Source of the DNA: Gammaproteobacteria bacterium HGW-Gammaproteobacteria-13
Lineage (GTDB): Bacteria; Pseudomonadota; Gammaproteobacteria; Pseudomonadales; Pseudomonadaceae
DNA: 64,000 bases
NCBI GenBank assembly: GCA_002840155.1
Contig: PGZH01000004.1
Coordinates: forward strand, 248,001-312,000
Direction of reading: 5' to 3'
Positions within the stretch are counted from its first letter, which is position 1. Each line of letters opens with the position of its first letter. The notes under the pieces are model-generated. The model saw only the letters and a list, made by a program, of their open reading frames with translations, was not told the DNA's origin and did not search any database. The translations under genes were made by a program, and so were the position numbers. This document shows, one piece after another, positions 1 through 43,256 of the stretch.

Positions 1-9
1 CCTTCCCGC

Positions 10-46
10 CCCCACGGCATCCGCTCCTTGCCGTGGGGCTTTTTTA
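10..46 (+). terminator. Rho-independent terminator of a gene upstream of the window
   Basis: A perfect 10-bp stem (10-19 with 29-38) is followed by GC and a run of seven T. The T-run lies on the plus-strand side, so it should stop transcription coming from a plus-strand gene left of the window. It converges with the minus-strand gene that ends at 44. Confidence 0.85.
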
Positions 47-388
47 TGAGTGAAACGGCCGCACCTCAACCGGTGCCCGGCAGGCAATGGCGGCCTTGCG
101 CCCCCAGGCCAGCGCTTCTTCCAGATCAGCCGTTTCCAGCACCCAGAAACCACCTACGTGCTCCTTGGTCTGCAGGTATGGCCCGTCACTAACAAGCACC
201 TCGCCATCGGGCTGCGCTCGCAGTGCTTTCGCGCCGCGCGCCGGGTGCAGACCGCCGACGAAAACCCTGACACCGGCCGCCACCATCGCGTCATTAAGCA
301 CGTCGATATCGCGGGTCATTGCCTCATCCTCGGCAATGGCCGGGTCGTAGTCATCGGGATGGTGGATCGCCACCAGATACTGCGCCAT
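44..388 (-). CDS. YCII-related domain protein
   Basis: A 114-residue protein starting MAQYLVAIHHPDDYDP and carrying the YCII-type ferredoxin-like layout. It has a mid-region DGPY segment followed by GGFWVLE, typical of the YCII/DGPF family of small proteins. Some members are dehalogenase- or lactonase-like enzymes, but most have no assigned reaction. The start is supported by AGGAGG about 7 bases before ATG. It stands alone, ending against the terminator at 10-46. The family assignment is fairly sure, the function unknown. Confidence 0.75.
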   Translation of the reverse strand: MAQYLVAIHHPDDYDPAIAEDEAMTRDIDVLNDAMVAAGVRVFVGGLHPARGAKALRAQPDGEVLVSDGPYLQTKEHVGGFWVLETADLEEALAWGRKAAIACRAPVEVRPFHS

Positions 389-450
389 AACGCCTCCTGC
401 TACGGGCTTTAGTCGCCCGGATAAATATGCTGAACGCGCTCAGCGCTGCG

Positions 451-891
451 TCATATGCGCTCTTGCGTCGTGAATGAGCGCAATCCGCCGAGCGCACTTG
501 CAAACAGCAATGCAAAACCGGCATTGAGCAGCGCGTTTTGCCAGAAGCCAGACAGCAGCGAATAGGCTGTGTCGGGGATAAACCAGGCGAGCAGCGACAC
601 AACAAACATCCACCATGCGTCTTGGCTGCCTCTGCGCACGGGGCCAAGCGCGAGAAACATCAGCACAGCGCCCCAGCCGAACATCACCGAGCCCAGCACG
701 GCATGCACCAGGCTGATATAAGCCAAGGCTTCAGGGCCGAATGTATTGAGGTGTGCCGCCGATGTGTAAACCAGCAGGCTGAATGCTTGCAGGGTAAAGC
801 CCGGCATCAGCACAAGCGCAAGCCCGAACAACATCAGCCCTGCGGTGGCTGCAACGAGTAAACGCCAGCAAAAAAGCTGAATACGGTTCAC
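451..891 (-). CDS. Small four-helix integral membrane protein of unknown function
   Basis: The 146-residue product is strongly hydrophobic, with about four predicted membrane helices (roughly residues 10-35, 55-80, 90-110 and 118-138). The start is a GTG at 889-891 preceded by GGAGAAGCC, a good ribosome site. Charged residues between helices 2 and 3 (PVRRGSQD) suggest a cytoplasmic loop. I recognise no catalytic motif. It lies alone between minus-strand genes without overlap. It is a real gene by its ribosome site and hydrophobic pattern, but the role cannot be given. Confidence 0.6.
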   Translation of the reverse strand: MNRIQLFCWRLLVAATAGLMLFGLALVLMPGFTLQAFSLLVYTSAAHLNTFGPEALAYISLVHAVLGSVMFGWGAVLMFLALGPVRRGSQDAWWMFVVSLLAWFIPDTAYSLLSGFWQNALLNAGFALLFASALGGLRSFTTQERI

Positions 892-966
892 GGCTTCTCC
901 AGATATCTAATGCCTGTACCGAGGCCGTAAACACTGGTTTGTGCCCACGCGGTAAGGGTTGATTAG

Positions 967-1437
967 TTAGCCCGCCGCGCGAGCGCCACTGAGCCTCTTT
1001 TGCATAAACACGCTCAGCGGATGTTCAGGGTAGTCGCCGAATGCGCTGCATATCTGGAAACCATGCTTCTGGTAAAACGCCAACGCCTCAGCTTGGTAAG
1101 GGCCCGTTTCAAGTTGCAGCAACTGACAACCGCGGTTTATCGACTCGACTTCTAGCTGTAGCAACACCTGCGCAGCTGCACCTTGCGCACGGTTGGCTAG
1201 GCGCACAAACATGCGCTTTAGCTCCCCCGCCCCATTGCCAAGCACCACCGCAGCGCAACCAATGGCCGCCCCGTCGTTGTCTCTGGCCACAGCAAACAAC
1301 ACGTTGTCCTGCTCCAGCGTGGTCAGGTCCAGCGCATAGCGCGCTTCGGCCGGGTACAAGGTGTCCTGATACGCATCCAACTCCGCGATAAGCGCAATAA
1401 CTTCAGGCTGGTTTGGAGGCTCTAGCTGCACGCGCAT
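967..1437 (-). CDS. GNAT family N-acetyltransferase
   Basis: GNAT-fold protein. It has the mid-protein strand FAVARDNDGAAIGCAAVV, then ELKRMFVRLANRAQGAAAQV as the acetyl-CoA binding motif A. It ends with LETGPYQAEALAFYQKHGF, the usual C-terminal YxxxGF segment. The open frame extends upstream to 1491, but the ATG at 1437 (MRVQLEPPNQ) fits where GNAT proteins normally begin, giving 156 residues. The acceptor substrate cannot be told. It is monocistronic, on the same strand as its neighbours. Confidence 0.75.
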   Translation of the reverse strand: MRVQLEPPNQPEVIALIAELDAYQDTLYPAEARYALDLTTLEQDNVLFAVARDNDGAAIGCAAVVLGNGAGELKRMFVRLANRAQGAAAQVLLQLEVESINRGCQLLQLETGPYQAEALAFYQKHGFQICSAFGDYPEHPLSVFMQKRLSGARAAG

Positions 1438-1540
1438 GCTTATATTCTCTGCGGTTTGTACTGTGATTAAGCGAATGAACGAATCGAGCATGCCCCAATA
1501 AGCAAAGCGAACGCGTTAAGCATTCAACGCCATGGCCAAT

Positions 1541-2059
1541 TTATAAATCTGCGGCGTCGGGCGCACGGAAGGCCTTGCTGTAGTATCCAGACTGGTCGAA
1601 ACAGCAAACATGCTTCTTGCCGGACGCGAGCATATCGCAGGCATCACCAATTCGTTTGCTGCGCGTCTTAAGTTGCTTGGCTGAAGTAATCCAATGTATC
1701 CAGTCCAATCGTGCGATGGTCGTCGTATCGGTCCAAACCTTACGGGCCTCAGGTGTGGCTGCCAGCGCCTCCTGAAAATCAGCTGGAATGTCAGGCTCTG
1801 GCTCCTTCTCCACCGCGCCGGCACCTTCGTACAACCCTCTACTGACCTTCAGCCAATGGCTCAGCTGACCATCAGGCTCAAGAGTCGCCTGGAAATGCTG
1901 TCCATTAATTGCGCCCTCAACTGTCGTTCTTCCTCGCCTCGGAAGCTTTTCACTGGCATCTCTCGGCAGTACTACAAACGCCCACGATGTATCACTACCA
2001 GGCTTTGCCGGACGAAGAAGCTTTGCTTCAAATCGGGATGTCACATCGACTTTGCTCAC
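1541..2059 (-). CDS. YdeI/OmpD-associated family protein with DUF1905 domain
   Basis: About 172 residues in two parts. The N-terminal DUF1905-type beta domain runs from FEAKLLRPAKPG to about residue 80. The C-terminal YdeI/OmpD-associated helical region contains DIPADFQEALAATPEARKVW and a WIxxAKQxxTRxxRI segment. The family is loosely called bacteriocin-protection, without a known mechanism. The start is uncertain. An ATG at 2077 is possible, but GTG at 2059 has GGTGGAG six bases upstream and matches the usual family N-terminus. The sequence just upstream (2075-2117) resembles a decayed attC, so this gene might once have been a cassette. Confidence 0.7.
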   Translation of the reverse strand: MSKVDVTSRFEAKLLRPAKPGSDTSWAFVVLPRDASEKLPRRGRTTVEGAINGQHFQATLEPDGQLSHWLKVSRGLYEGAGAVEKEPEPDIPADFQEALAATPEARKVWTDTTTIARLDWIHWITSAKQLKTRSKRIGDACDMLASGKKHVCCFDQSGYYSKAFRAPDAADL

Positions 2060-2074
2060 TGCCACTCCACCCAA

Positions 2075-2117
2075 CATATGCGCTTGGTTAAACTGGCCGC
2101 GGCCTGAATTAATCAGA
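2075..2117 (-). other. Possible relic attC site
   Basis: Read on the minus strand, this stretch has TCTGATTAATTC, a GGCCGCGGCC palindrome, and then TTTAACCAAGCGCATATG. The ends resemble the short attC type of antibiotic cassettes (TCTAACAATTC at one end, TTAACTCAAGCGTTAGATG at the other), but the GTTRRRY core is lost. This is an analogy made by eye; the site is degenerate at best. Confidence 0.25.
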
Positions 2118-2331
2118 CGCCAGCTTCAATCATTAACTTAATTTTTGTTGCCTTCTCGAAATGATCAAGCCTGTGGGTTTCGATCCACCACGTTGCAGCT
2201 TCCATAAGAAGCTCCGGATCATTATTTTTATTTGCGAAGAACGCATAAAAAGAAACGCCAACGACCTCACCTTTGGCAAGTATCTTCTTTGTACAAACAC
2301 TGATGATTTTGTCTCTTAGATCTTGCCGCAT
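2113..2331 (-). CDS. Hypothetical 72-residue protein in cassette island
   Basis: A small soluble protein starting MRQDLRDKIISVCTKK, helical by composition, with a central aromatic stretch (VSFYAFFANK) and LLMEAATWWIETHRLDHFEKA. I do not recognise it. Its ATG at 2331 follows the stop of the gene at 2361-2663 by 29 bases, with no attC between them, so the two probably form a two-gene unit. AT-rich codon use differs from genes outside the island. A role as immunity protein or antitoxin for its hydrophobic neighbour is a guess from the arrangement only. Confidence 0.5.
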   Translation of the reverse strand: MRQDLRDKIISVCTKKILAKGEVVGVSFYAFFANKNNDPELLMEAATWWIETHRLDHFEKATKIKLMIEAGV

Positions 2332-2360
2332 TAATTTAAATTACCTTTTAATTAAGGTTT

Positions 2361-2663
2361 TTAACTAAATAGGCTAGCAATTGCACTTGCTATGCCTTCG
2401 ACAACTGCTACCACTCCATCAATCATGGCCTCGAAGGTTCCGACTACTATCTCCCAAATTCCTTCGTTGCTTTGAGCAAGAGGCGCAGCTGCTCCGGCAA
2501 CGGAAATAGCGATAGCGGCCATAGCGATAGCGGCCATAGCGACAGAGTTGAAACCCATCACGACAATGTAAATTGCAGCCCCCATAAACAATGCTGCACA
2601 AAGTGAATTAAATGACCTCAGTAATTTTGACCTTTCTATTTTCTTTTTCATTTGCAGCACCAT
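2361..2663 (-). CDS. Hypothetical small hydrophobic protein with in-frame 15-bp repeat
   Basis: A 100-residue protein with a basic N-terminus (MKKKIERSKLLR), two hydrophobic helices (about residues 18-36 and 38-62) and an amphipathic tail rich in Ala, Val and Ile ending in SLFS. Two copies of a 15-bp unit encode AMAAI repeated in the second helix. The start may be Met1 (2663) or Met5 (2651); neither has a strong ribosome site. No family is recognised. The composition resembles membrane-active peptides such as bacteriocins or type I toxins, but it is long for the latter. It is followed closely by the 72-residue gene. Confidence 0.5.
   Translation of the reverse strand: MVLQMKKKIERSKLLRSFNSLCAALFMGAAIYIVVMGFNSVAMAAIAMAAIAISVAGAAAPLAQSNEGIWEIVVGTFEAMIDGVVAVVEGIASAIASLFS
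2511..2540. repeat. Two tandem copies of a 15-bp in-frame unit
   Basis: The plus-strand unit GATAGCGGCCATAGC occurs twice back to back, followed by a partial third copy (GACAG). Read on the minus strand it encodes five residues per unit within a membrane segment of the 100-residue protein. Copy-number change would keep the frame and alter helix length. Confidence 0.8.
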
Positions 2664-2684
2664 TTGTAGCTGGATGAAAAATGC

Positions 2685-2757
2685 TTTGAATTTGGCTAAG
2701 GGCCGGCTTTAGTGCGTTCCGGCGAGCGGATCGAACTGGTTTAACCAGTTGTTAGGG
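2685..2757 (-). other. attC site with decayed 3' core
   Basis: On the minus strand the stop codon of the 258-residue gene runs straight into CCCTAACAAC (R''-like end). The site then shares the blocks GGAACG, CTAAAGCC and CCCTTAGC, in the same order and spacing, with the intact attC at 3535-3612. Where the intact site ends in CGTTAGGGC, this one has AAAGCAT, so the recombination core is missing. Its unusual AACTGGTTAAACCAGTT arm is self-complementary. Confidence 0.55.
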
Positions 2758-3528
2758 GGAACCTGCAATATCAAAAAAATCAGCCATCCATGCTTTTTCA
2801 TCGATAGATGGGTTGTAGCAGTAATTAGTTTGATCCGAAGACTCAACTGGTAGCTCGGTCCAATATCTTGGTTGTGCAACAACATCCAAAAAGGCTAGTT
2901 CACATGTGACATAGCACATCCAAACGCTGCTAGTGATGAATTGCAGATTTAGAGCCAGCGGCTCATATGATTCTGTGTACTCACGAATGGGTGTTATCTG
3001 CTTGTACAGTTTCCCTATGTGAGTGAACTCTTTGCTCAGGAGTCCGTAGAACTGGCCAAAAGGCGGGAATACACGTCTTGCACTTGCAACTGCTCTAGTT
3101 GAGTCAAATTTATGGGCTCGATGTGCTTCTAAGTCACTTTGAAACTGGATGAGATGTAGAACAACAGCCATTGACTCCAAGCATGACCGGATAACTGCTC
3201 CGGGTTGGAGAACAAAGCCACCGCGAGCTAGGTAGGTAGCTGCAGCTATGGAGTTGAGGCAGTTAGATAGCAGTTCACTGCATGCAATTCTAAGCTCATC
3301 ATTTTCTTGCGTAGCCTTGATTGTTCCTGATGTAAGCAGCGCAAAGCAATGTGCGAATTCTGTGCTGATGACTTTTAAATCGCCGCTATGTAGGTCGTCA
3401 AAAGATTTGGCGATTTTCTCGGCATCACGAGTTATTTGATTAATCAGTACTGTTGTGCGGATTTCAATCAGTCTGCGGTTGATCGAATCAAATACAACAG
3501 CACAGGTGTCGGGATGCTGAGAGTTCAT
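2752..3528 (-). CDS. Hypothetical cassette protein, 258 residues
   Basis: Largely alpha-helical soluble protein beginning MNSQHPDTCAVVFDSINRRL. Midway it has VIRSCLESMAVVLHLIQFQ followed by a basic HRAHKFDSTR stretch, a pattern also seen in several uncharacterised helical families. There is no signal peptide and no convincing membrane segment, although WMCYVTCELAFLDVV is hydrophobic. The TAA stop is part of the downstream attC end (2751-2757), and the ATG at 3528 lies 7 bases after the core of the upstream attC. It is therefore a complete gene cassette. Function is not recognised. Confidence 0.6.
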   Translation of the reverse strand: MNSQHPDTCAVVFDSINRRLIEIRTTVLINQITRDAEKIAKSFDDLHSGDLKVISTEFAHCFALLTSGTIKATQENDELRIACSELLSNCLNSIAAATYLARGGFVLQPGAVIRSCLESMAVVLHLIQFQSDLEAHRAHKFDSTRAVASARRVFPPFGQFYGLLSKEFTHIGKLYKQITPIREYTESYEPLALNLQFITSSVWMCYVTCELAFLDVVAQPRYWTELPVESSDQTNYCYNPSIDEKAWMADFFDIAGSP

Positions 3529-3534
3529 CTATGT

Positions 3535-3612
3535 GCCCTAACGATTAAGCTAAGGGAAGGGCTTTAGCCCGTTCCAATGAGCGAAGCGAAAAATTTGAGC
3601 GCATTGTTATAC
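3535..3612 (-). other. Integron attC recombination site
   Basis: Read on the minus strand, the site begins GTATAAC (R'') and ends GTTAGGGC (R'). The inner arms AATGCGCTCAA and TTAGCTTAAT pair imperfectly. The centre holds CGCTTCG-type and GGGCTTTAGCCC inverted repeats. Order, length (about 78 bp) and extra-helical mismatches fit attC sites of chromosomal integrons. It lies 13 bases after the stop of the 159-residue gene and 6 bases before the start of the 258-residue gene. Confidence 0.8.
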
Positions 3613-3625
3613 GCAAGCGCTGAGG

Positions 3626-4105
3626 TCATCGAGTAACTTTGTACTGCCATATTCTTGTTTTGACACCAGTATCGTCATCAACGCCATCATGATCTGGTTC
3701 CCCAAACAATTTACCTGCAACTGCAAGAGATGCTTCGTTATCTATCTCAATTAGGGATTCAATATAATATTCTTGGCCATATTTCGGTCGTAAATCATTC
3801 TTGAATTGCTCAAGAACTTGATTGATAAATACTGTTGTGAGCCCTTTTCCTCTTAATTCTTCTAGAGTTCCATAAAACAGGCAGAAGCAGGGGAGGCCGT
3901 TTAGCGACTGATTTCCGTTTAGCACGACGAGCTGCTGAACTTTTAATCCTTTCAGGCGCGCATATGTATAACGCTCGGCTCCTAAGGCCATGTCGACTTC
4001 AAGGTGCAAATCTTCAGTTCCTCGAACCTTTTTCATCCGAAACCCCGAGGAAAACGCCTGCTCTAGTAGCTTGAACCCGGTCATTGGATTTTGGTGTTCA
4101 TGCAT
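3626..4105 (-). CDS. GNAT-like cassette protein
   Basis: A 159-residue protein whose second half looks like a GNAT acetyl-CoA site. A strand (LPCFCLFYGTLEEL) is followed by RGKGLTTVFINQVLEQF, matching the RxxGxG/A loop and helix. Then come IESLIEIDNEASLAVAGKLFG, with the typical N-x-A-S-L-x-x-x-x-K-L-G run. The N-terminus is unlike common GNATs. The ribosome site AGGTGAAGGG before ATG at 4105 is strong. It is the first gene of the array and is followed by an intact attC. The substrate is unknown; cassette GNATs often modify drugs or other small molecules, but nothing here shows that. Confidence 0.6.
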   Translation of the reverse strand: MHEHQNPMTGFKLLEQAFSSGFRMKKVRGTEDLHLEVDMALGAERYTYARLKGLKVQQLVVLNGNQSLNGLPCFCLFYGTLEELRGKGLTTVFINQVLEQFKNDLRPKYGQEYYIESLIEIDNEASLAVAGKLFGEPDHDGVDDDTGVKTRIWQYKVTR

Positions 4106-4149
4106 CCCTTCACCTATCTTTAATAGTTATTGATAATTTGATCTTGTAT

Positions 4150-4197
4150 ATAACTAGACGACATTTTCGTCGCATAACACCACATAAGATGTCGTAT
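4150..4197. other. Possible recombinase or operator site upstream of first cassette
   Basis: The inverted pair ACGACAT and ATGTCGT brackets CGTCGCATAA, a 6-bp spacer and ATAAGATGTCG, which are imperfect inverted half-sites. Half-sites around a 6-bp spacer are typical of tyrosine recombinase cores, and GTTATGC on the minus strand resembles an integron core triplet. It stands where attI would lie ahead of the first cassette. It could equally be a transcription factor operator. Confidence 0.3.
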
Positions 4198-4538
4198 AAA
4201 GTCTCGGCCTAGCACCATCCTTCTAGGCAATCCAAAAATTTCCAAAAGCCAAACCGCCACCACTCAACACCAGCCAGAACCTACGTCTTTGCCGCCGCAC
4301 TGTCTAGCAGCCCTCGATCAATTCCTCAGTAGCGTCAGCCCAATGCCAAGCCTCGGTTTTTCACGTTAAAAACAAGCGCCCCCCTTAAGAAATGTTCACC
4401 AAGCCAGCAGCGTGCGGGTGTCGAGCAGGCATGGGCTAATAAAGCTGCGCCACGCTGGTTTTGTGCTAGATATTTAGCTGATGGTTTTGCCGTTTTTTAA
4501 AACCCCAAAACAATAATCGCAAGAGACGGTACGTGCAT
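4198..4538. other. Non-coding stretch between cassette island and export operon
   Basis: No open frame with coding character was seen on either strand. In particular I found no integron integrase motifs (the RHSFAT or LLGH-type blocks) here. The right end holds the ribosome site AAGAGACGG of the next gene. Composition returns to the flanking GC level after about 4200, marking the edge of the island. Confidence 0.5.
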
Positions 4539-5063
4539 ATGAGTACAGAGCTGAACACAGCCCAGCCCAAGTCCGCCCATTGGCGGTTTAAGTTGGGTAT
4601 CGCGATTATCTGTTTGATTCCGGTTTTGTGGCTTCTGGTGCCGCTGGCAGCGGCGGCGGATGTGCCGGGGTCCAAGGTGGCGGCGCTTTCGGGGGCGCTG
4701 TTTATCCTTAACAAGATTCTCTTGCTGCTGGTTATCGCCATCATGGGCAAGGCGGGTTTCCAGGAGCTGAAGCAGCATATCTACGGCTATATGTCTTCGA
4801 TGGTGCCGAGCACTGAGGATGAGATCAGCCCGATGCGTCATCGCATTGGCTTGGTGATGTTCTGTTTGCCGTTGATTTCGTCCTTTCTTGAACCCTATAT
4901 CGACGCTATCGCGCCTGGCCTGCGGCCTAATAACTGGGCGCTGCAGATGCTCGGCGATGCCATGCTGATTGGCAGCTTCTTTGTTTTGGGCGGCAATTTC
5001 TGGGAGAAGCTGCGTGCGCTGTTTATTCGCACCGCACGGGTTAGCAGCCCCGACGCTGCGTGA
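4539..5063 (+). CDS. Transporter-suffix-domain-like membrane protein
   Basis: About 174 residues with four hydrophobic helices. One segment (IAIMGKAGFQELKQHIYGYM) and the later RHRIGLVMFCLPLISSFLEPY block match the small 'transporter suffix' family of Pseudomonas. The family is found as separate proteins or as tails on transporters. A GTG at 4533 is in frame, but ATG 4539 is better spaced from AAGAGACGG. It lies 60 bases upstream of the HlyD-type gene and is probably co-transcribed with the export genes. Function within the exporter is unknown. Confidence 0.6.
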   Translation: MSTELNTAQPKSAHWRFKLGIAIICLIPVLWLLVPLAAAADVPGSKVAALSGALFILNKILLLLVIAIMGKAGFQELKQHIYGYMSSMVPSTEDEISPMRHRIGLVMFCLPLISSFLEPYIDAIAPGLRPNNWALQMLGDAMLIGSFFVLGGNFWEKLRALFIRTARVSSPDAA

Positions 5064-5123
5064 TCTACCCCGCACTGCCGAGTCAACCTTGGTGCTTGCT
5101 CCATCTGCCTTACGGGAACCCTT

Positions 5124-6254
5124 ATGTCTGAAGCACTAGAGCAGCCTGACAGCACGCCACCGGCCGAGACGCCGGTGGCCGTCGATAAATCCGCGCCGCC
5201 AGCCAACCCGCTGCGACGTATTGCGTTGATCGTGGTGTCAGTTGCCGCCGCGCTGTTTGTGCTGTCCATCCTGATGGAGCGCAGTACCCCGTCCACCTCG
5301 CAGGCGGTGGTGCAGGGTTATGTGGTGCAGATGGCATCCGAGGTGGGTGGCCGCGTGGTGGAAATCGCGGTGCTCGATAATGCGCGGGTGGAGGCTGGGC
5401 AGCTGCTGTTTCGCATTGATCCGCAGCCTTACAAGATCGCCATTGCCGAAGCCGAGGCGCGCCTTGAGCAAACAGGCCAGTCGTTGGGGGCAAACACCGC
5501 ATCGGTGGATGCGGCCCAAGCTCAGCTCGTTTCTGCCCGCGCCCAGCGTGACAATGTGCGCGAGCAAGCACGCCGGGTAATGCAGCTGGTTGAACGCGGC
5601 GTTTATGCGCGGGCGCGTCTGGATGAAGCCACCGCGTCGCTGAACTCCGCCGAAGCTGCCGTGGTCAAGGCGCAGGCCGATTTGCAGCGTGCCCGTCAGG
5701 AACTGGGACCAACCGGTACGGATAACCCGCAGTTCAAGCAGGCCCTCGCGCAGCTGGAAAAGGCCCGGCTTGATCTGGTGCGTACGGAAATTACCGCGCC
5801 GGCCGACGGGGTGATCACCAATCTGCAGCTCGCCGTTGGCCAGGTGGTCAGCGCCGGCCAGCCCGCGCTGACCTTTATAGACACCGGCACCGTGTGGATT
5901 TCCGCAGCCTTTAAAGAAAACAGCCTGGAACACGTACAGGCCGATGATACGGCCGAGCTGGTGTTCGACGTGTTGCCTGGGCGTATTTTCAATGCCCGGG
6001 TCGAGAGTGTCGGCTGGGGCGTTGCAACAGAAGGCAGCAGCTCTTCTGCCCTGCCCTCGGTACGCAACCAGAGCGGCTGGGTACGTGACCCGCAACGCTT
6101 CCCCGTGCGCCTGGTGGTGATGGAGCCTTATCCGAAAGGCCTGCGCTATGGCTCACAGGTTACGGTGGTGATTTACACCGGCGATAACCCGCTGGCGAAT
6201 ATGTTTGGCGTAATCACCGCGCGGCTTGTGGCCCTGCTGACCTATGTCAACTGA
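5124..6254 (+). CDS. HlyD/EmrA-family periplasmic adaptor
   Basis: Membrane-fusion protein of 376 residues. It has a short cytoplasmic N-terminus, one membrane anchor (about residues 32-50), a lipoyl half-motif (VVQMASEVGGRVVEI), and a coiled-coil hairpin rich in Ala, Gln and Arg (about 95-205). The second lipoyl half begins at TEITAPADGVI, followed by a beta-barrel domain. Such adaptors link an inner-membrane pump to an outer-membrane channel. The stop overlaps the start of the DUF2955 gene by 11 bases, so the two act as a pair. No outer-membrane factor gene is adjacent. The substrate is not evident. Confidence 0.85.
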   Translation: MSEALEQPDSTPPAETPVAVDKSAPPANPLRRIALIVVSVAAALFVLSILMERSTPSTSQAVVQGYVVQMASEVGGRVVEIAVLDNARVEAGQLLFRIDPQPYKIAIAEAEARLEQTGQSLGANTASVDAAQAQLVSARAQRDNVREQARRVMQLVERGVYARARLDEATASLNSAEAAVVKAQADLQRARQELGPTGTDNPQFKQALAQLEKARLDLVRTEITAPADGVITNLQLAVGQVVSAGQPALTFIDTGTVWISAAFKENSLEHVQADDTAELVFDVLPGRIFNARVESVGWGVATEGSSSSALPSVRNQSGWVRDPQRFPVRLVVMEPYPKGLRYGSQVTVVIYTGDNPLANMFGVITARLVALLTYVN

Positions 6255-7287
6255 GGCCTTGGCGGCCCCCTCCCCGTCAATCGATCTGGCGCGCGCCAAA
6301 CGCCAGGGCTTGCGTGTGGCCCTGGCGGTGACGGTGGGCTTCAGCGTGGGGCTGGTGAACGGCAGCGTGCTGCCGTTTCTCGCACCGTTGTTCGCCACCC
6401 AGTTTCTGCTGGCCAGCTACAACCCGCCCGGTTTGCGTCAGGGGCTGGGCACTGTGTTGCTGATCTTTATCGTAGGCGCGCTGCTGATCTTCCTCACCGG
6501 CCTGCTCGGTGAGCGGCCGTTGGTACTGCTGCCGTTGCTCTGGCTGTGCTACTTCAGCTGCTTTTTCGCCCAGGGTCGCCAGGTGGGTGGCGCGGGGCCG
6601 GCGTTAATGCTGGTGATTGCGATTGTGGTGCCGCTGCTCGACATCCTCCAGCGTGACCTCGGCGAGTCGATTGTCTTGGTTCTGGCCAAGGCGGTCAGCA
6701 TCGGCCTGCTGCTTGCCTGGGGCGCTCACGCAGTATTCCCGGATCTCGGCCCAGCGCCGGTAACCCCTGCGCCTTTGCAGCGGGCTGAGCTGGGCAGCGT
6801 GACGCGCCAGGCCATGGTCAGTGGCGCCATCCTGTTGGGCATGGTGGCGCTGTGCTTGATCGACTCGCGCCTGGCCACGGCGATGGTCATACCGATTACC
6901 GTGGCCTCGTTGCTCAGTCAGTTCGAGCTGGGGATGAGCAGCCGAACCGCTGCCGCGCTGATCGTGATCAACCTGCTGGGCGGGGTTGTCGCATCCCTGG
7001 CATTTACCGTGATCGAACTGCGACCCAGCCTCTTGTGGGTCATCCTAATCCTGCTGACGGTGAGCCTGCTGTTTGCCGGCCGAGCCGTAATGGGCGCGGT
7101 GACGGGCAAGGTGTTTGGCGGCGGGGTGACGACCTTTCTGATTCTCTTTGGCCTGGGCGTTTCGCCATTGCCCGGCGAAACGCCGGAGCTGTTTTCCACG
7201 CGAATTGCCTATGTGCTGTTCGCGGTTCTGTATGCCTTGTGCATGGCCAGCCTGTTCTGGCCCAGGCCGCGTAACGCCAATCATTAA
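6244..7287 (+). CDS. DUF2955 / FUSC-like inner-membrane transporter subunit
   Basis: A 347-residue polytopic protein with about ten helices in two similar halves. It starts MSTEALAAPSPSIDLARAKR and has an early GFSVGLVNGSVLPFLAPLFA stretch typical of DUF2955. These proteins sit beside HlyD-type adaptors and are related in layout to aromatic acid exporter (FUSC/AaeB-like) families. The overlap with the adaptor gene supports one export complex. What it transports cannot be deduced here; aromatic acids or toxic anions are guesses from the wider family. Confidence 0.75.
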   Translation: MSTEALAAPSPSIDLARAKRQGLRVALAVTVGFSVGLVNGSVLPFLAPLFATQFLLASYNPPGLRQGLGTVLLIFIVGALLIFLTGLLGERPLVLLPLLWLCYFSCFFAQGRQVGGAGPALMLVIAIVVPLLDILQRDLGESIVLVLAKAVSIGLLLAWGAHAVFPDLGPAPVTPAPLQRAELGSVTRQAMVSGAILLGMVALCLIDSRLATAMVIPITVASLLSQFELGMSSRTAAALIVINLLGGVVASLAFTVIELRPSLLWVILILLTVSLLFAGRAVMGAVTGKVFGGGVTTFLILFGLGVSPLPGETPELFSTRIAYVLFAVLYALCMASLFWPRPRNANH

Positions 7288-7318
7288 TCGCTGTACTGCT
7301 GTTAATCAGGTGCCGTCT

Positions 7319-7663
7319 ATGCGCAAGCTCTGGAGCAAGTACCTGGCGCTACTGGATGCAGACTTAAGCGCCAAGATCTTCGACAACATCAAAAACCTGC
7401 TGGTCTGCGCGCTTCTATTTGCCGCCGGCACTGACGCGTTGCATGGCAACCATCAGATCTTTATGGGGCTCTGGGGCTCAACCCTGGCAGGTTGGGGGTT
7501 GATCATCGTATCGGCGCTTCTGCTGCTACTGAATATCAGCGACGCCCTGCGGCGCCTGGCCAAACTGCGCCATCACGTGGTGCTGCAGCTCATCCTGTTT
7601 CTGCTTTACCTGATCCTGGCTGTGCGCGTGGTGGAAATCGTCTGGAGCTTCAGAAGCACATAG
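7319..7663 (+). CDS. Small membrane protein of unknown function
   Basis: A 114-residue protein starting MRKLWSKYLALLDADLSAK. It has three hydrophobic segments (roughly residues 24-42, 48-72 and 88-108), and the basic stretch RRLAKLRHH between the last two suggests a cytoplasmic loop. The frame extends upstream into the DUF2955 gene, but ATG 7319 is preceded by a CAGG and sits 31 bases after that gene's stop. It is convergent with the sensor kinase gene, only 7 bases apart. Probably the last gene of the export operon; no family is recognised with confidence. Confidence 0.55.
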   Translation: MRKLWSKYLALLDADLSAKIFDNIKNLLVCALLFAAGTDALHGNHQIFMGLWGSTLAGWGLIIVSALLLLLNISDALRRLAKLRHHVVLQLILFLLYLILAVRVVEIVWSFRST

Positions 7664-7670
7664 CGCCCCA

Positions 7671-9002
7671 CTACACCTCAGCGGCCGAGCGGGTAACGAC
7701 CAGCAAGCTCACGCAGAACCCATTGCCCGTATTGGCAAACTCAAGTTCGCAACCGCAGCGCTCGGCGATGGCCTTGACGATGGACAGTCCCAGGCCGCTG
7801 CCTTCGCCGCTGGAGTTGCGCCAGAAGCGCTCGGTCAGCTGGGCGAGCTTGTCCGCAGCCACTCCAGGTCCGGAGTCGCGCACGCTGAAACAGACCTTAT
7901 CCCCACGCATTTTCACGCTCAGGCTGACGGCAGTGCCGGGCGGGGTATGCCGTTGGGCGTTGTCCAGGAGGTTGCGCAAGGCGGCAATGGCCAAGGTCGG
8001 AGGCATATCCAGCAAGCGCTGGGCGCTGGCGTCGGGCAGCTGCAGTTCGATGACTGGCTGGCCCGGCTGCTGGGCGTCACCGATAGCTAGCTGCGCCACT
8101 TGCTCGGCGCTGTATTGCAGGTTCTCGTCAAACGGCAGACGGCCTTCAACCCGCGCCAGCAGCAGCAATTGCTCCAGGGTCTGGTGCAGACGGTCGGCAC
8201 CGGCTTCAGCGTTGGCCAGTGCCTGGCGGGCGGTTTCGCCTTCGGTCATGCCGGCCACCTGCAGGTGGGTCTTGATCGCGGTCAGCGGGCTGCGCAGCTC
8301 ATGGGCGGCATCGTCGGTCAGCCGGCGTTCACGCTCGATGGCCTGGGCGATACGTTGAAACAGCTGATTCTGGGTAGCCACCAGCGGTTGCAGTTCCTGC
8401 GGCAGGCCGTCGATTTGCAGAGGTTCGATGCAGTCGGCACGACGCTGGGCCAGGGCCTGGCGGATGCGCTGCAGAGGCGACAACTCACGGCTGAGACCAA
8501 ACCAGAGCACCAGCAGGCTGCCAACCAAGGCCAGCAGCACTGGGGCGGCGGCGGCCAGCAGAATGGAACGTTTGAGCGTGTCGCGCTCGTCCAGTCGGTC
8601 TGCCGTGGTTACGCGCATATCGCCTTCCACCAGGGTGAAGGTGCGCCAGGTCAGATCACCAATGGTGCGTTCATGAAACCCCGTTTCCGCCATGCCCAAG
8701 GCGCTGTCCGGTGCGGCGCGACTGCTGGCAAGTATTTCGCCGCGTACCGAGCTGATCTGGCAGGCGATGCCTTCGGGAATACCCAGCTGTTCGGTGCTGA
8801 GCGGTGCACCACTTTCCCCCTGTTGCGGTGCCGGCAGCTGCGCGAGCAACCCGGCGACCATGCGCGCGGAAGAGGCCAGGCGCTGATCGAGCGAGAGAGT
8901 CAGCTGATTGCGCAGATCAAACAGCATCCACACGGCTGCCAGCGACCAGAGCAGCACAAAGGCCGAGCCGAGAATAAGGGTAAGGCGCAGACGCAAACTC
9001 AT
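7671..9002 (-). CDS. dsbS: Sensor histidine kinase, DsbS-like
   Basis: A 443-residue kinase with two membrane helices (about 8-28 and 147-170) flanking a periplasmic sensor of about 115 residues, then HAMP. The DHp phosphoacceptor is His234 in DDAAHELRSP, and the ATPase domain has N (LLDNAQRH), G1 (DSGPGV) and G2 (GSGLGLSIV) boxes. The sensor holds a single cysteine, Cys81. In P. aeruginosa DsbS, copper sensing is reported to depend on a cysteine at nearly this position. The start overlaps the regulator stop by 4 bases. The name rests on synteny with divergent dsbD-dsbE-dsbG plus this cysteine. Confidence 0.75.
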   Translation of the reverse strand: MSLRLRLTLILGSAFVLLWSLAAVWMLFDLRNQLTLSLDQRLASSARMVAGLLAQLPAPQQGESGAPLSTEQLGIPEGIACQISSVRGEILASSRAAPDSALGMAETGFHERTIGDLTWRTFTLVEGDMRVTTADRLDERDTLKRSILLAAAAPVLLALVGSLLVLWFGLSRELSPLQRIRQALAQRRADCIEPLQIDGLPQELQPLVATQNQLFQRIAQAIERERRLTDDAAHELRSPLTAIKTHLQVAGMTEGETARQALANAEAGADRLHQTLEQLLLLARVEGRLPFDENLQYSAEQVAQLAIGDAQQPGQPVIELQLPDASAQRLLDMPPTLAIAALRNLLDNAQRHTPPGTAVSLSVKMRGDKVCFSVRDSGPGVAADKLAQLTERFWRNSSGEGSGLGLSIVKAIAERCGCELEFANTGNGFCVSLLVVTRSAAEV

Positions 9003-43108: not shown

Positions 43109-43256
43109 AATCCCCCGCTCCTGCGCTTGCCAAGTTCGCCGCCAAGGCCTATTGCTTAATCAGCGTGACGCCGGGCCCCTCTGGCGGTGAGCCTTCACCG
43201 TGATGTCGGAGTCACTGAGTTGATTTTCAACTTAGGCAGACATTCGAGGTGGCTCT

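Follow-up and report, generated by a model that had tools for sequence, protein, structure and literature searches.

The window, that is, the whole stretch of 64,000 nucleotides analyzed here, corresponds to C11:248001-312000 of G000, a genome of 4.5 Mb in 26 contigs. It contains, between two chromosomal flanking genes, four minus-strand genes (A to D), two attC sites, and an attI-like site that the original prediction had overlooked (Table 1). Read along the minus strand, the attI-like site is followed by gene A, attC 1, gene B, and attC 2. The segment 2113-4197 has a GC content of 43.4% versus 60.6% for the window, in agreement with its predicted AT-richness; the integron array on contig C16 of the same genome has 45.2%. 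All four genes had been regarded as cassettes. This holds for genes A and B, the only ones bounded by recombination sites, but not for genes C and D, which lie beyond the last attC and are kept in relatives. Because of their position downstream of the last attC and because counterparts exist at the same place in the related locus L057, genes C and D were treated as flank. In the 64-kb window, there was no match of our attC model R1 downstream of gene C.

Table 1. Features of the locus in window coordinates, ordered along the minus strand.
Feature	Position	Strand	Basis
Chromosomal flank, conserved gene used as query for finding relatives	4533..5063	+	no Pfam family
attI-like site, 5' end of the array	4149..4200	-	R2 model; L box TGTCGTCTA retained, R box without the crossover GTT
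Cassette gene A, 159 aa, probable GNAT-type acetyltransferase	3626..4105	-	weak PF13302; plasmid relatives
attC 1, R' box GTTAGGG intact	3536..3612	-	R1, 64.6 bits, E 2.7e-17
Cassette gene B, 258 aa, without family assignment	2752..3528	-	profile searches
attC 2, degraded, R' box without GTT	2683..2757	-	R1, 27.7 bits, E 9.5e-6
Flanking gene C, 100 aa, adjoins the last attC	2361..2663	-	L057 counterpart; L056 alignment
Flanking gene D, 72 aa, DUF6500 (PF20110)	2113..2331	-	E 7.4e-26
Chromosomal flank, YdeI/OmdA and DUF1905 gene	1541..2077	-	PF13376 E 1e-19; PF08922 E 1.4e-15

The attC family downstream of the C16 integron integrase was first located by a script scan, and R1 was built from 26 attC of this main integron; according to the tool itself, the E-values of R1 are approximate. 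A covariance-model search for attC had been suggested along with the original prediction, and R1, our own model, recovered both predicted sites: the one proposed at 3535-3612 almost exactly, and the second, sequence-related one as a degraded member of the same family. At E ≤ 10, these were the only two matches in the 64 kb, both on the minus strand. A check of the R''/R' core boxes (GTTRRRY) found the GTT in the R' box of attC 1 but not in that of attC 2. An Rfam gathering scan of the window detected no attC or attI family; its only match was a terC RNA at 43163-43218 (58.1 bits).

Gene A probably encodes a GNAT-type acetyltransferase, as suggested by a match to PF13302 that is below the family cut-off (E 0.012) and by its plasmid relatives: of six matches, four with 26-31% identity are annotated as N-acetyltransferases, and two with 57% are hypothetical proteins. 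It also matches phrog_3609 (function unknown, E 1.9e-4). Gene B had no Pfam match at E ≤ 0.01, with only DUF5677 (0.22) and BORCS6 (0.039) as weak matches, and none in PADLOC or NCBIfam; a single relative with 26.5% identity is encoded on a Methylobacterium plasmid. A sequence search of the PDB gave no match for gene A and three at E 0.21 for gene B. The suggestion of defence-related cargo found no backing, as a PADLOC search for known defence families gave no hits for five proteins.

The attI-like site

The upstream border of the array is similar to the attI of the C16 intI. To test this similarity, we used R2, a sequence model derived from 21 intI-adjacent attI sites, including those of C16 and of genome G411 and excluding the window and L057. 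R2 matched positions 4149-4200 of the window (22.4 bits; E 2.3e-5 for the 207 kb searched, E 4.9e-4 for the whole genome), a score far below those of intI-linked sites, such as the attI of C16 with 53.8 bits. Ungapped alignment to the C16 attI gave 37/52 equal bases, whereas none of 358,766 background positions exceeded 27/52. Both outer attI motifs are present with the same spacing as in C16. Where the linked C16 attI reads TTATAGTTA, the window reads TTATATACA, and the crossover GTT is therefore missing. This GTT is intact in L057, which shares 46/52 bases of the block with the window. Among the 21 linked sites, the nearest to the window site are those of G411 (0.73), a close relative, and of its own genome (0.70), by a narrow margin over the third (0.69).

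As in a complete integron, an attI site precedes the first cassette, but no intI lies beside it. A minus-strand promoter-like site that could represent the cassette promoter Pc was not found in a consensus scan of 2000-4700. The arrangement resembles the delta-attI cassettes described for class 1 and 2 integrons (PMC12901181) in that attI occurs outside its usual place, where those sites are recombination-active; as described there, however, attI replaces attC at the cassette 3' end, whereas the window attI lies 5' of gene A, and genes A and B are each followed by an attC. Short stretches matching the window near 4254 were seen in other genomes but dismissed: four of the five fetched share one coding-like context unrelated to the locus, and the fifth differs.

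Integrases, further arrays, and related loci

The predicted lack of intI was confirmed for the window, as no remnant was found at E ≤ 1e-3 in positions 1-8000. An ORF was obtained for 7 of the 14 IntI queries planned for this search. We counted the five with a length of 348-349 aa (L001, L110, L133, L134, and L143) and disregarded the matches of L121, an ORF whose behavior is unlike that of IntI. The genome as a whole carries a complete intI at C16:275150-276091 (487.4 bits), the only match over the cut-off. The genome-wide search, also suggested at the outset, further detected 59 attC of the same family at E < 1e-3, of which 35 belong to the C16 array with intI, 15 lie at C17:390786-398298, 4 at C22:203960-206689, 2 in the window, and 3 are single. 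Among these matches, the last attC had the lowest score in all four groups of at least two attC (39.1 bits at C16:292889, 38.2 at C17:398224, 32.2 at C22:203960, and 27.7 at window 2683).

With R2, seven matches were obtained in this genome at E ≤ 10, the top one being the C16 attI. On the same strand upstream of the C22, C17, and C11 groups, R2 scored 34.9, 23.2 (right half only), and 22.4 bits, respectively, and 14.3 bits (E 0.17) before the single attC at C17:176064. A site without attC was matched at C20:252131 (16.5 bits, E 0.036), and the match at C20:181767 (12.0 bits, E 0.91) is probably background, because near-equal weak matches occur in G411 and G413. The attI-like site at C20:252131-252187 (L155 4131-4187) is directly followed by an ion-channel gene (PF07885), and a tRNA-Arg gene lies nearby. 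No stretch of more than 130 bp is shared between the C16 array and the arrays of C17, C22, the window, or L057.

Scanning genome contigs for the flanking protein yielded 50 loci, six of which were compared by BLAST (L055-L058, L065, and L074), and junctions were read in three of these six. The records of the close relatives are Pseudomonas sp. or Gammaproteobacteria MAGs. In L057 (NZ_JAUXXP010000061.1), the flanks are 93.5% and 95.8% identical to the window, and the counterparts of genes C (105 aa) and D (72 aa) are in place. The same attI is followed there by five attC of 61-100 bits around other genes, and only attC-sized pieces and the borders match the window island. In L056, the gene C/D stretch aligns, and the flank adjoins an attC reduced to its 3' half. 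L056 was considered as an empty site, but as its junction contains this half attC, it was taken as a deletion remnant. L055 diverges at window 4251, before attI, and was uninformative. Eight more distant relatives (L047-L054) were rejected as empty sites, since their upstream flank is not adjoined by the window's other side; R1 gave one match only in these loci (16.5 bits). The loci of the window, L056, and L057 contain no intI remnant.

attI heads on integrase-less arrays of other genomes

To see how common such heads are, we counted groups of at least two attC that have no intI and do not lie at a contig start. G000, G122, G411, G412, and G413 contain 11 such groups (3, 2, 0, 4, and 2, respectively), and an attI-like site was assigned to the 5' end of nine. 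One of the nine heads is the right half on C17, and that of C200 in G412 is weak (13.7 bits, E 0.27). For both assessable G122 groups (L251 and L252), an attI match was absent, and three further G122 groups at contig starts were excluded. In G207, G346, and G279, all ten groups (3, 5, and 2) had an attI-like head, one of them a right half, a count that is biased upward because these genomes were chosen for their many attI matches (6, 6, and 5). Single attC in G207 and G279 had such a head in two of five cases. Of the 88 attC (E ≤ 1e-4) in these three genomes, which comprise 3, 1, and 1 contigs, 67 lie outside the intI-linked array, including the 25 attC of the largest G346 group.

At the scale of the genus, 122 of 398 genomes had an R2 match at E ≤ 0.01 in a search with stricter filters (nominally about four by chance), and 46 of 398 had an intI at E ≤ 1e-80. 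An attI match was present in 42 of these 46, and 27 of the 42 had two or more. Conversely, 80 genomes had an attI match without an intI at this threshold, some of them with a broken intI below it, e.g., at L220 (G198) and L241 (G255).

From the matches listed, we hand-picked 20 strong attI sites, none beside an intI of E ≤ 1e-80. At 19 of them, attC (≥25 bits) followed downstream on the same strand, at 17 two or more, and only L223 had none; sizeable intI pieces were found at three (L212, L216, and L220). In a second hand-picked set of 20 from lower in the list, 10 sites had attC, and all 15 attC matches were on the attI strand. The stronger attI matches examined were thus nearly always accompanied by downstream attC, and the weaker ones half the time. 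Many solo attI sites share about 75 bp upstream, which in linked sites includes the intI start region; they sit behind unrelated chromosomal genes. The window attI lacks these 75 bp. The idea that solo sites always follow the resident attI type was abandoned, as the genome's own attI ranked first of 21 for 5/17 solo sites, second for 6/17, and lower for 6/17.

Origin of the array and the CALIN label

The island probably represents a small array of integron cassettes that has its own attI but no adjacent integrase; its cassettes were probably loaded by an integrase encoded elsewhere, and the array is now likely frozen. In integrons, the attI crossover occurs at G/TT against the folded attC strand. 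We infer past recombination at the window attI, in which an integron integrase would have inserted cassette B and presumably thereafter cassette A. The simplest interpretation would be that the locus was already without intI in the ancestor of the window, L056, and L057, and that cassettes were still exchanged later. As these loci share a position without intI, while the cassettes of the window and L057 are entirely different and L056 retains half an attC, exchange was most likely mediated by an integrase encoded elsewhere, such as the C16 intI in G000, which would have acted in trans. What speaks against trans action is that no intI over the family cut-off was found in the L056 and L057 genomes, although these are MAGs and may be incomplete. 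Further points against the proposed origin are the low R2 score of the window attI, the two G122 groups without an attI match, the unremarkable DNA folding of attC 1, the negative promoter scan, and the lack of matches above 130 bp between the C16 array and the others. Both attI and the last attC have lost the crossover GTT; the array thus looks frozen, and neither outer border should recombine.

Alternatively, the island could be the relic of a complete integron, whose cassettes were loaded in cis by an adjacent intI that was subsequently deleted, without any trans action. We deem this plausible but somewhat doubtful. The genus does offer a decay series at other loci, with interrupted intI beside attI (L220 and L241) and partial intI (L212, L216, and L231), and the 75 bp kept by many solo attI sites include, in linked sites, the start region of intI. 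Because of these shared 75 bp and the broken intI in L220 and L241, local intI loss is favored for some loci. At the window, L056, and L057, however, there is no remnant, the window site is devoid of the 75 bp, and the complete difference between the window and L057 cassettes suggests that turnover was later than any intI loss.

Cassettes might also have entered a chromosomal site that is not an attI. Loot and colleagues reportedly described in 2024 such insertion at attG sites. Insertion at attG, which would give an off-site CALIN, is likewise mentioned in PMC12444791. For the window, this origin is improbable, as an attI-like block of 52 bases, including the two outer motifs spaced as in C16, is present at the insertion border, and much of it is shared with L057. 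Palindromes arising by chance among AT-rich genes were also considered as an explanation of the attC, but the R1 search refuted this. Although attC 2 is degraded and DNA folding relative to shuffles, analyzed without a C16 attC control, was unremarkable for attC 1 (z -0.66 and -0.15 for the two strands; attC 2, z -1.89), the two E-values with no further match in 64 kb and the presence of intact attC at the corresponding position of L057 leave this explanation next to no probability.

With at least two attC, as detected by our own model, and no integron integrase nearby, the label CALIN given in the original prediction stands by definition. The island is not a bare cluster, however, since it has an attI-like head, two cassettes rather than four, and an intI elsewhere in the genome. 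It exemplifies, in worn form and with two cassettes, arrays that have an attI head but no integrase, and as an explanation, the label is incomplete. CALINs as described with IntegronFinder (PMC9024848) share with the window the attC sites and the missing neighboring integrase but differ in that the window array has an attI-like head; that survey counted 2961 CALINs versus 2760 complete integrons. A CALIN with its own attI has been published for the Shewanella prophage M16-3 (PMC9892861). That case concerns one prophage, whereas the present arrays belong to bacterial contigs, with several in a genome, and are spread over many genomes of a single genus. The Xanthomonas CALINs of PMC12444791 are similar in that several lie at fixed or conserved loci away from intI, and differ in that, as far as described, attI was not reported there; according to the same source, CALINs can be mobilized in trans. 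Among the literature matches listed, from a search mostly outside the subscription literature, attI-headed arrays without intI across a genus had not been announced, and we regard this pattern as provisionally novel. It would escape IntegronFinder, which detects attI of class 1 only.

Taken by itself, the window island is of modest interest, while the attI-head pattern is worth pursuing. Decayed integrons and off-site insertion are two candidate origins of CALINs, and an attI head could separate them by sequence. As most intI-less groups examined have attI heads, service in trans by one integrase is directly testable. Tentatively, the Pseudomonas integron may be a distributed system, in which one resident or transferred integrase serves several scattered attI-headed chromosomal arrays. 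If this were true, the satellite arrays together could exceed the cassette number of the intI-adjacent array, and many Pseudomonas CALINs would be functional satellite platforms rather than debris.

Three further observations concern the array heads. The C17 (L105 from about 4558) and C16 (L009 from about 14231) arrays share 116 aligned bases with two differences, which begin inside attI and reach into the first cassette, followed by divergence. A second type of head consists of an attI right half after a hairpin and was seen at L105 4490-4590, L244 1310-1430, and L246 2240-2345 (DNA folding z of the hairpin -2.1, -4.4, and -6.4, respectively); L244 and L246 represent one locus, and about 150 bp of it recur in the C17 region at 82-83%, although the C17 flanking genes differ. 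Finally, the solo attI sites of L207, L210, and L221 lie behind the same gene, LysR-type by sequence reading, in three genomes, with 2, 12, and 2 attC in the respective stretches fetched.
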